Source: Hexactinellida sp. DTS-2022 (lineage: Eukaryota > Porifera > Hexactinellida). From it: a stretch of 64,000 bases of DNA. The notes under the pieces are model-generated. The model did not search any database. It worked only from the letters and a program-made list of their open reading frames with translations, and was not told where the DNA came from. Shown in pieces: positions 14,569 to 17,615 of the stretch (position 1 is its first letter; the number at the start of each line of letters is the position of its first letter). The translations under genes and the position numbers were made by a program. The stretch is taken from the NCBI GenBank assembly GCA_028753945.1, contig JAPNXP010000001.1:2346501-2410500 (forward strand), in the 5' to 3' direction.

Positions 14569-14600
14569 TTTCTTTTTCTTTTTCTCCGTAGACGGTGCCC

Positions 14601-14636
14601 CACAGTGGGTTATTTTGGAAGTTCACGGGAAGTAGG
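14601..14636 (+). other. 3'-side transposon end: heptamer and nonamer-like block
   Basis: CACAGTG is followed after a 20-bp spacer by GGAAGTAGG (14628-14636). The opposite end has the same 9-mer after an 11-bp spacer. A partial GGAAGTT also occurs at 14617-14623. Calling this a nonamer is inference. Confidence 0.55.
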
Positions 14637-14781
14637 CATTTCCTTGCTATATAGAGCAATGAAATGTATTATAAGTGTATAGGTTATCATACTCAAAAAA
14701 TCGAATTACACCCTCAGATTTTTTATATGGCTTCAATTTTTTGGGTTATGACGTCATCATGACATATCATTTTCAAATAAT

Positions 14782-14787
14782 TTTATT
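14782..14787 (-). terminator. Possible poly(A) signal of the RAG1-like gene
   Basis: TTTATT on the + strand reads AATAAA on the coding strand, about 80 nt beyond the stop codon and inside the transposon. Position fits a short 3' UTR. There is no transcript evidence. Confidence 0.4.
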
Positions 14788-14866
14788 TCCTGATTTTAAG
14801 TTATGCAGTATCATGCACAGTACACAGTATAAACAATTACAGTTTGAGCTATGTAGAAATAGACAA

Positions 14867-17005
14867 CTATATCACAAGTTTATTGAACAGTAAAGAATCG
14901 ACCAGTTTGTCTTGATTCAAAAGCGGTATTTTGCTATCTTTACATTTTTCACTCCTAATATGGCCTATTTCACCACAATGCTTGCAAATTAATGTTCTAC
15001 GATAGCTAGAGAGGAGAGGATCACTCTGACTGAGAAGACGAGTGAACACATCTTTTAAGTTGAGGGTAAAAGAATTTTTTCTGGATAGATGTTCTCGATA
15101 GCGCCGGATTAACTTATTGCATGATTCTATTGCTTCCTCTGAATATTCTTTAAGTCCATATCCATCGTTGCAATCTCGAATTAGTTCGGTACAATGAGCT
15201 AGGAGTTTATGTAAAGATGGTGTTATATTGGCCCATGGAAAGGTAGTTAGTATTAGTTCGTATGTATTTTTACTTAATTCCTCCAAATTTTCTGAATTTA
15301 CTTCCTGGCTACTATTGAATATTCGTAAAATTGCTGAGAGATTAGTCTGGAGTATGGAGATATCATCCCTAAATTTTGAGGGTATTAGCGACGAAACGTA
15401 GTAAATAAACTCATTCTTATTGCCAAAGCATTGTCGAGCAATATTTCCTGTTGAAGTAGTACCACCATCACTTGTAGGTTGGTCAATTCGAAGTCCAGTT
15501 TTCTCAAATAAGAAATCACTGCAAAATTTCTTTGAAGCTTCGACCGCTTTCGAAGTCGGTGACCAGACAGATTTTCCAGATTGTAAATGGTACACCAAGA
15601 GCATGAACCATCTGAATACACATGTATAACTGTGTAGAGGTGAAGCCGATAAAATATTTCTGTCAGAAACTGGTTCATGAGTAATGCCTAACCTTTGACT
15701 GGAGGGGAGGGATAGATATTCGTCTTTATCTACGAAAGTAAACAAATCTATTGCGTCCAAAATATGTCGATTAATGGGGAAACCAGCCCTAACCATTTCC
15801 AGGTCTTTAAGTTCTTTAAGATTTGCAGTACACAATTGACAGTGTGCGCCTCCAGCTCCGCTAAGAATCCCAGACATTTTGCCATCAAGCATACTACGAA
15901 TGATCTTGGCTTGCACCATTCCTTGAGGTAACTGTAAGCCATCTTGTTCAATAGAGTTCACTTCAGGATTAATGATATTTTCCATTATAAACTTAACGTT
16001 ATCAAGACACTCCTTTTGAGCAAGTAGTACAACAGGCCTTACTCCAAACGAAGAATTAGGCGAGTTATTTTTCCAAACTTGGATATTATCAGAGTCATGA
16101 ATTGACAGTAGTTTGAAGGCGAATAAAATGAAGTTTTTTGTACTTGGAGTTGGATGTAGCTCATACTGATTATAAATTTGGTGACAACCAGACCCATCAA
16201 GACCATCTGATAGCTTTACTGTCAAAGGAAAATGAGATTCAAAGAGTGGAGGATTAGTTTCGAATACCCTTAGCAGGGTCTGTCGTAAAATACTTCTGTA
16301 AGAAATCGCGATTCCGATGGTCACATTCATTGGATTTGTGACAAATGTTAACTCGTTAACTAAATTGACATCATTACGATATTGAGCTAGTCTAGAATAA
16401 GAGGGGAAGGTGATGTTCTCAGATTTGCAAAGACGTCGAAAGTTCGTATATTTTAGCTTTCCTATTTCAAGGATGTCAAGCAAGAAAGTGGACTTGTCAA
16501 TAGGTAGGGTTTTGGACAGATTAGCATATGTTCCGGTCGCTATTATTTCCTTGCAAACATTAGCGGTGTTAACATCTCGGGATTCATTAGATAATAACAT
16601 TAGTGCATAGGCAGCTATTATGTTTGAGTTAACTTCCTCCTTAAGCGAAAATGCGTGTATTATTTTCAAAACCGGACCAAGTCTTGTCCGCAAGGCTTTC
16701 AGGGTAAGTAGAGATAGGGGCTTTCTTATTTCCATTGATAGATCAGATTCTATGATAAGCTTTTCCTCGAGAATCTGTTGCTTCGGGGAATGTGTTGATG
16801 GAAACGTGTAAAATATTTCAGCCTCCCATTCCTCCATCTTCTTGGCCTTTCGCGCAGAATCCCTCGTAGGTTTAAGATTTCTGAATTTGTACCGTAAACC
16901 ATCGAATTCGCTATCATCTAATTCAAATTCTTCAACAAATTTCAAAGCAGCAGCACGTATTGATTCCTGGGTTGAAAGGTACTTCCAAGCTTCAAAATTA
17001 TTCAT
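14867..17005 (-). CDS. RAG1/Transib-like transposase, 712 aa
   Basis: This is a single uninterrupted ORF. Landmarks in RAG1 order: a DDE-start motif VKLSDGLDGSG (Asp267), matching the first RAG1 catalytic Asp region; NSPNSSFGVRPVVLL (~314-328), like the RAG1 'PNSELCCKPLCLML' segment; a zinc pair CQLC (389-392); a PLHSY block (456-460); TSTGNIARQCF (517-527); zinc pair HKLLAH (599-604), identical in spacing to RAG1; and SEEAIESCNKLIRRYR (622-637), with Glu627 aligning with the catalytic Glu. A C-terminal CKHCGEIGHIRSEKC (674-688) is CX2CX3GHX5C, close to the CCGHC zinc motif known from the amphioxus RAG1-like tail. The RAG1 RING/N-terminal region is absent, and the size fits Transib transposases (~700 aa). 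Oddity: where RAG1 has LHCD (second catalytic Asp), this protein has LHSY. It may be inactive, domesticated, or use another Asp. Family assignment is strong; activity is unknown. Confidence 0.9.
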   Translation of the reverse strand: MNNFEAWKYLSTQESIRAAALKFVEEFELDDSEFDGLRYKFRNLKPTRDSARKAKKMEEWEAEIFYTFPSTHSPKQQILEEKLIIESDLSMEIRKPLSLLTLKALRTRLGPVLKIIHAFSLKEEVNSNIIAAYALMLLSNESRDVNTANVCKEIIATGTYANLSKTLPIDKSTFLLDILEIGKLKYTNFRRLCKSENITFPSYSRLAQYRNDVNLVNELTFVTNPMNVTIGIAISYRSILRQTLLRVFETNPPLFESHFPLTVKLSDGLDGSGCHQIYNQYELHPTPSTKNFILFAFKLLSIHDSDNIQVWKNNSPNSSFGVRPVVLLAQKECLDNVKFIMENIINPEVNSIEQDGLQLPQGMVQAKIIRSMLDGKMSGILSGAGGAHCQLCTANLKELKDLEMVRAGFPINRHILDAIDLFTFVDKDEYLSLPSSQRLGITHEPVSDRNILSASPLHSYTCVFRWFMLLVYHLQSGKSVWSPTSKAVEASKKFCSDFLFEKTGLRIDQPTSDGGTTSTGNIARQCFGNKNEFIYYVSSLIPSKFRDDISILQTNLSAILRIFNSSQEVNSENLEELSKNTYELILTTFPWANITPSLHKLLAHCTELIRDCNDGYGLKEYSEEAIESCNKLIRRYREHLSRKNSFTLNLKDVFTRLLSQSDPLLSSYRRTLICKHCGEIGHIRSEKCKDSKIPLLNQDKLVDSLLFNKLVI

Positions 17006-17610
17006 TTAAGAAGAATAAAGGCTACAATGTTATTCAACAAGTAAATTACACAAATTTGTATAAATAATGAAAGTTATCATCCAAATATATAAATATTTTC
17101 ACTTGCGCGGGGTTGTGCGGGGCTGGATAGTGGTTAAATCACAAGATAATTATGTAAGGTATAAATATAAATCGGTCTAGATAGACACCACCTCGCACCA
17201 CCTTAAGTTTATTCACCATCAACAGTCCGAACATATGCATCCGGACAATTACAGCAAAAACTATTTTTATAGCAGATTAGACTAATAATTAATCCTATCT
17301 ATATTTAGTATACAACTGTTTTAGGATGATCCAACGTATAATTACATGTACTAAAAGTCTTAACTCATTCTGATAGAAGCCTACTGAGAACAAGAGCATG
17401 ATGTGAAGCGATATTATGAAACTGCAAAATTTAAAAAATACAATACTTAAAAATCCATTATTTGATGCTCTCTATTTCTCATTATATTTGGAATTATTAC
17501 CTGAAATTAAAGCTACCTAGGTTTTAGACTATGCTGAATACAATAGCAAGTTTTAGAGGTATTTGAGAACATGAAAATTTGACCCTACTTCCTGTCAATA
17601 ACCCACTGTG
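17006..17610 (-). promoter_or_regulatory. 5' region of the RAG1-like transposon
   Basis: These 605 bp lie between the ATG (context CTTAAATGAAT) and the element end. They must hold the promoter if the gene is expressed. I see no convincing TATA/initiator arrangement and no second ORF. A GC-richer GCGCGGGGTTGTGCGGGG patch lies at ~17106-17123. Confidence 0.35.
17584..17610 (-). other. 5'-side transposon end: heptamer and nonamer-like block
   Basis: On the - strand, CACAGTG (17610-17604) is followed after an 11-bp spacer by GGAAGTAGG (17592-17584). The spacer is 9 bp shorter than at the other end, giving asymmetric ends. Confidence 0.55.
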
Positions 17611-17615
17611 TGCCC

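Follow-up and report, generated by a model that had tools for sequence, protein, structure and literature searches.

Antibody genes are cut by the enzyme RAG1, whose nick-and-hairpin chemistry is also that of HzTransib, the transposon of Helicoverpa zea. HzTransib has a single gene for a RAG1-like DDE transposase, ends that start with CAC, and 5-bp target duplications. Transibs that have asymmetric ends and an equivalent of the RAG1 nonamer-binding domain but no RAG2L are already known: in Subgroup I, asymmetric ends are described for all members, together with a CTT1 tail and the alpha11-alpha12 region that is also reported for RAG1L (PMC9435367). Some insect Transibs have 12/23-like asymmetry (PMC8355894) and some Transibs bear heptamers identical to the consensus of the recombination signal sequences (RSSs; PMC6941560). 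In a window of 64,000 bp from the glass sponge Hexactinellida sp. DTS-2022 (contig JAPNXP010000001.1, positions 2,346,501 to 2,410,500), we found an element that shares the type of transposase, the single gene, the CAC-starting ends and the 5-bp duplications of HzTransib and that, with the mechanism proposed below, is very probably a complete, autonomous cut-and-paste transposon of the Transib superfamily, similar to Subgroup I. Because both have been reported in other Transibs, neither its heptamer nor its asymmetry is unique to it.

The element occupies positions 14601-17610 of the window (3,010 bp) and is opened and closed by a perfect 14-bp inverted repeat, CACAGTGGGTTATT, at 14601-14614 on the plus strand and 17597-17610 on the minus strand. 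As an earlier note on this DNA had stated, both repeats begin with the heptamer CACAGTG (14601-14607 and 17604-17610) and the sequence TGCCC is duplicated at the borders (14596-14600 and 17611-17615, without strand). The flanks are part of a repeat with many sister copies, and the note's intact pre-insertion site is indeed found there: when we joined the flanks around one TGCCC, 17 contiguous sites agreed with the joined sequence at 38 or more of 50 bases, 14 of them with exactly TGCCC, as compared to none at that threshold in one base-shuffled window on one strand. These sister copies belong to a dense array of diverged repeats at 3900-45000 (approximately 75-96% identical, in either orientation, with a unit of 0.8 kb or more) that includes a segment matching its own reverse complement; the transposon is inserted in one array copy. 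The element itself matches only itself in the window, and a search of the window against Rfam at gathering thresholds returned no match. CACAGTG occurs six times in the window as compared to 3.9 expected, with no enrichment, and more than 10,000 times in the genome, so the heptamer alone was rejected as evidence; support for the element comes from the combination of features. Its sole long open reading frame (ORF), of 712 codons, lies at 14867-17005 on the minus strand, flanked inside the element by 605 bp and 266 bp; it has no internal stop and its translation holds the RAG1 core landmarks that the earlier note had listed. The ORF listing of the 3,010-bp element contains no RAG2L gene.

To compare borders across copies, we fetched 40 regions, of which 31 contain an outer two-ended element (L039-L069); eight (L070 and L072-L078) have no second end, and the counts exclude the L071 pair, with a poor second end and unlike flanks, and pairs formed by chance inside L059, L060, L063, L064, L066 and L068. 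Identical 5-bp flanks are present in 25 of the 31. We sampled five divergent copies (45-57% protein identity) through their flanks; in three, both ends were located, each with CACAGTG, and the 5-bp flanks are the same on either side (TACTG, TAATG and TAACC), and in each of the remaining two one CACAGTG end was located. In total, 28 of 34 elements carry 5-bp duplications, where simple arithmetic gives a chance of about 1 in 1,000 per element. The 28 duplications lean towards YRNYR (pyrimidine first in 24, purine second in 26 and, in 18 each, pyrimidine fourth and purine fifth). The 5-bp duplications and the CAC-starting inverted ends are those of the Transib superfamily.

The genome-wide search (112.4 Mb in 18 contigs) with the 14-bp end, which the earlier note had proposed, found the 14-mer with at most one mismatch 114 times forward and 102 times in reverse, as compared to 40 and 10 for a backwards control. 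Coding matches to the transposase number at least 71, at 36-100% identity and in about 60 places (some are pieces of one copy); the count is a lower bound because 63 of 1,016 candidates were scored. Twelve of the 71 run for at least 600 residues without a stop. The 13 coding copies that we examined (L039-L051, 3.0-6.1 kb) fall into two young families and a third group of two more diverged copies (81.6%). Identity between copies at different sites is 97.7-99.8% within each young family, and five of the 13 have intact ORFs. One of these, L044 (C4:1678006-1685705), carries approximately 3 kb of extra DNA near the end downstream of the ORF, probably a nested insertion. Such numbers differ from the "one or at most a few" autonomous copies that are usual for Transibs in an animal genome (PMC4411706). 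There are also short elements (L052-L069, mostly about 1,050 bp) with the same kind of ends and no ORF, which are apparently non-autonomous. Most of them bear CACAGTGGNTTATT at their ends, use the two spacers of the coding copies and are flanked by 5-bp duplications; within one subfamily, six copies carry an extra internal CACAGTGTTTAATTAT, L056 has CACAGAG at one end, and L054 and L055 have CACAGTGGGCTATT ends and form an older or different subfamily.

An intact ORF and restrained amino-acid change between families (dN, nonsynonymous divergence, is 0.24 between the two young families; dS, its synonymous counterpart, is above the range of the method) might also be seen in a domesticated host gene. 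For the window copy this is contradicted by ends that are intact, by the duplicated target and by the empty sites, and near-identical copies lie at other sites, so that we find domestication scarcely credible here. Some other copies show one end in the sampled flanks, and there domestication is possible; the divergent coding copies at C1:3416945-3419059 and C12:1045598-1047670, with one recognizable end, are candidates for truncation or domestication.

The ORF is predicted, from profile matches, alignment and a structural model, to encode a RAG1-type DDE transposase, and this single gene is the only one of the element. By alignment, the catalytic residues are D270, D374 and E627 and the zinc ligands are C389, C392, H599 and H604, giving the RNase H fold class with the CC/HH zinc site of Transib-superfamily transposases. 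The earlier note had named two outcomes that would count against it, no RAG1 or Transib profile match and other copies with different borders and no 5-bp duplication; we found the duplications described above and a match to the Pfam RAG1 family PF12940 (E 4.4e-7, 28.8 bits, cut-off 25). In a phmmer search of the PDB, HzTransib (E 2.8e-25) scored ahead of amphioxus RAG1L (BbRAG1L; 1.3e-7) and RAG1 (about 3e-6), and HzTransib was also the best fold match of the predicted model. Judged by its sequence, the sponge protein is nearer to Transib than to RAG1L or RAG1.

Three regions of the protein recall RAG1 or RAG1L. Codons ~92-143 (16577-16732, minus strand) are homologous to the mouse RAG1 chain 3gna (E 7.2e-7), which we take to be the nonamer-binding domain. 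With a profile of residues 85-159 built from 14 sponge-clade proteins, the 16 best matches were all RAG1 and the first non-RAG1 match came at E 0.21; HzTransib and BbRAG1L were not among the matches at E up to 10. Codons ~402-450 (15656-15802, minus strand) align with RAG1 alpha11-alpha12, with model helices at 402-407, 415-424 and 427-431. In the stretch that separates CxxC from the ASPLH block, HzTransib has 13 residues as compared to 48 positions in the sponge profile, and BbRAG1L aligns through. The CCHC-type tail CKHCGEIGHIRSEKC (codons 674-688; 14942-14986, minus strand) resembles CTT1/CTT* of RAG1L, with the pattern Cx2Cx3GHx5C as compared to Cx2Cx3GHx4C, which is the definition of CTT1 (PMC9435367) and the RAG1L tail (PMC7204232). 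Only about 91 residues precede the nonamer-binding-domain homolog, so the N-terminal non-core zinc-finger region of RAG1 and RAG1L is not present in the ORF. Residues 1-62 are instead modelled as a confident helical domain of five helices (pLDDT ~90) that is barely covered by structural matches.

The retained regions raise the possibility of a true RAGL transposon that has lost its RAG2L gene, which would be RAG1L by descent and Transib by gene content. The alpha11-alpha12 region, CCHC tail and RAG1-like nonamer-binding domain are kept as in RAG1 and RAG1L, whereas in HzTransib the first is shortened and the last was not detected; a Transib origin through RAG2L loss is a scenario raised in PMC7204232. 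However, the core sequence is nearer to HzTransib, the zinc-finger region is missing, and the retained features are also reported in Subgroup I Transibs (PMC9435367). The phylogeny that the earlier note had suggested was carried out with limited references (HzTransib, BbRAG1L and mouse RAG1 in 21 rows, with no Subgroup I sequence). Given the number of references, the long branches and the lack of an outgroup, we read this unrooted tree for grouping only: the sponge clade (100/99) stands apart from BbRAG1L with mouse RAG1 (100/100), and HzTransib sits on a long branch outside the latter pair. Taken together, these data make descent from a RAGL transposon improbable. We rejected membership in RAGL (RAG1L-RAG2L) based on gene content and the missing zinc-finger region; it is also not supported because the protein is nearer to Transib and the limited tree separates it from RAG1L and RAG1. 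The earlier description of a recent member of a RAG1-only lineage is supported as regards a RAG1-related transposase in a single gene, RSS-consensus heptamers at the ends, the 5-bp duplication and recent movement, and is not supported as regards membership in the RAG1-like families. The asymmetric inner element, the nonamer-binding-domain homology, the host and the genome-wide expansion are additions to that description.

Relatives of the ORF are found in another glass sponge. The three nearest full-length homologs are 71-74% identical to it, and a profile of three sequences found 103 homologous proteins; the 16 that carry a source name are all from Oopsacas minuta. Automatic annotation had already labelled such relatives, as some Oopsacas homologs are named "V(D)J recombination-activating protein" in UniRef (for example P0017, 45% identity over 94%). 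Term searches found neither Transib nor RAG1 in the available text of the Oopsacas genome paper, neither Transib nor RAG in that of the Aphrocallistes genome paper, and no sponges in the main text of PMC9435367. A literature search, covering mostly papers outside subscription, found none on Transib in hexactinellids or on a RAG1-like transposon in Porifera. PF26100 is assigned to many homologs in a database listing, and a Pfam scan of five homologs, three of which bear it, did not return it. Scans of about 85,000 bacterial and archaeal species genomes and of viral contigs gave no confirmed relative, with 1-3 short patterns per scan, which is weak evidence; the bacterial and archaeal result says little about the proposal in the literature that Transib had an ancestor in bacteria.

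The two ends of the element are asymmetric, as in Subgroup I. The inner element GGAAGTAGG begins 13 bp inward of the 14-mer at the "long" end downstream of the ORF (14628-14636, plus strand) and 4 bp inward at the "short" end upstream of it (17584-17592, minus strand), giving spacers of 20 and 11 bp from the heptamer. Across ends, its motif is GGRADTAGG. Among 71 distinct ends, we found the inner element at offset 18 in 34, at 27 in 35 (one at 28), and at neither in two (L054 and L055), and all 13 coding copies have the 13-bp spacing on the downstream side of the ORF. In 13 representative elements, the best end-to-end self-match has a 9-bp shift in eight and a 10-bp shift in one (C17). The most telling case is a copy at C1:15.93 Mb with approximately 46% protein identity: although it carries another repeat, CACAGTGGTCCAG, and has TCTTCGAATAGGCA as inner block, its ends still show a shift of 9, and TAGG is as far from the heptamer as it is in the copy of the window.

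Several observations weigh against the asymmetric Transib-type transposon that we propose. The inner motif was picked with the ends already in view, and the 71 ends derive mostly from related copies, so the 3.8% of ends that attain the same score in an interior-shuffle control is a descriptive figure. The shift is absent or unclear in three of the 13 representatives (L054, L055 and C9, the last one of the three divergent two-ended elements) and tied between 9 and 10 in L053. Identical 5-bp flanks are missing in six of the 31 elements, L054 and L055 included, and a Cx2Cx3GHx3-7C tail is present in only 18 of the 36 relatives that reach the C-terminal end.

The asymmetry could, moreover, be merely inherited by related copies, with an enzyme that uses the terminal 14 bp alone and no function in pairing. 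That most ends belong to a few families and that three representatives have no clear inner element would fit this, as would the proposal that asymmetry matters relatively little to the RAGL complexes of invertebrates (PMC7204232). In contrast, the ~46%-identical family keeps the exact 9-bp offset and register despite a different repeat, another family (47%) keeps 10 bp, two further single ends keep the register, the short non-autonomous elements keep both spacers, and ProtoRAG prefers unlike ends (PMC8289069). On balance, we consider simple inheritance unlikely, though it deserves to be taken seriously.

In the mechanism that we favor for this Transib-type element, a transposase dimer would bind both ends, with the RNase H core and C-terminal parts contacting CACAGTG and adjacent bases and the nonamer-binding-like domain contacting the inner GGRADTAGG element. 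By analogy with RAG and HzTransib, the enzyme would nick 5' of CACAGTG and then cut through a hairpin, and it would insert with the 5-bp stagger seen in the duplications. Spacers of 11 and 20 bp differ by slightly less than a turn of the helix, and for this reason a short end paired with a long one is probably what the complex prefers; this would be a counterpart of the 12/23 rule that does not depend on RAG2.

Two-part ends of this kind have been described elsewhere. AanRAGL of the alga Aureococcus likewise has two conserved blocks 4 and 13 bp apart and makes 5-bp duplications; however, its first block is 13 bp rather than 14, it starts with CACACCC, its inner block is CCTCAAYAYG and it encodes RAG2L (PMC9435367). 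ProtoRAG of amphioxus has bipartite asymmetric ends with a heptamer-like terminus, but it encodes RAG1L and RAG2L and uses CACTATG, 27/31-bp spacers and the inner block GCCATCTTG (PMC8289069). With vertebrate RAG1 and its 12/23 RSSs, the sponge element shares the exact heptamer, the nonamer-binding-domain homolog and an inner element at two fixed distances; these lie 9 bp apart (11 and 20 bp, with GGRADTAGG) as compared to 11 bp in RSSs (12 and 23 bp, with the nonamer ACAAAAACC), and the element has neither RAG2 nor the zinc-finger region. The likeness to Subgroup I Transibs is to their published descriptions (PMC9435367) rather than to sequences compared directly, as the homology searches and contig scans gave no protein that could be recognized as Subgroup I.

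What stands out is the combination of these features in one RAG2L-less, multi-family and apparently recent expansion in a non-bilaterian animal. This bears on the origin of split, asymmetric RSSs and of the 12/23 rule, since a family without RAG2L joins the exact RSS heptamer, a recognizable RAG1 nonamer-binding domain and two fixed spacers that are partly kept across families less than 50% identical in protein. One review has proposed that dependence on 12/23 asymmetry hinges on how vertebrate RAG2 subsequently evolved (PMC8355894). We tentatively raise the possibility that a RAG1-only transposase of a non-bilaterian reads a two-part signal, made up of the CACAGTG heptamer and an inner element contacted by a nonamer-binding domain, and enforces short/long pairing, so that a 12/23-type rule existed without RAG2 and RSS-type signals were inherited from a transposon rather than being a vertebrate refinement. 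Since the ends are defined and five or more of the near-identical copies have an intact ORF, a standard transposition assay could address how the 12/23 rule arose.
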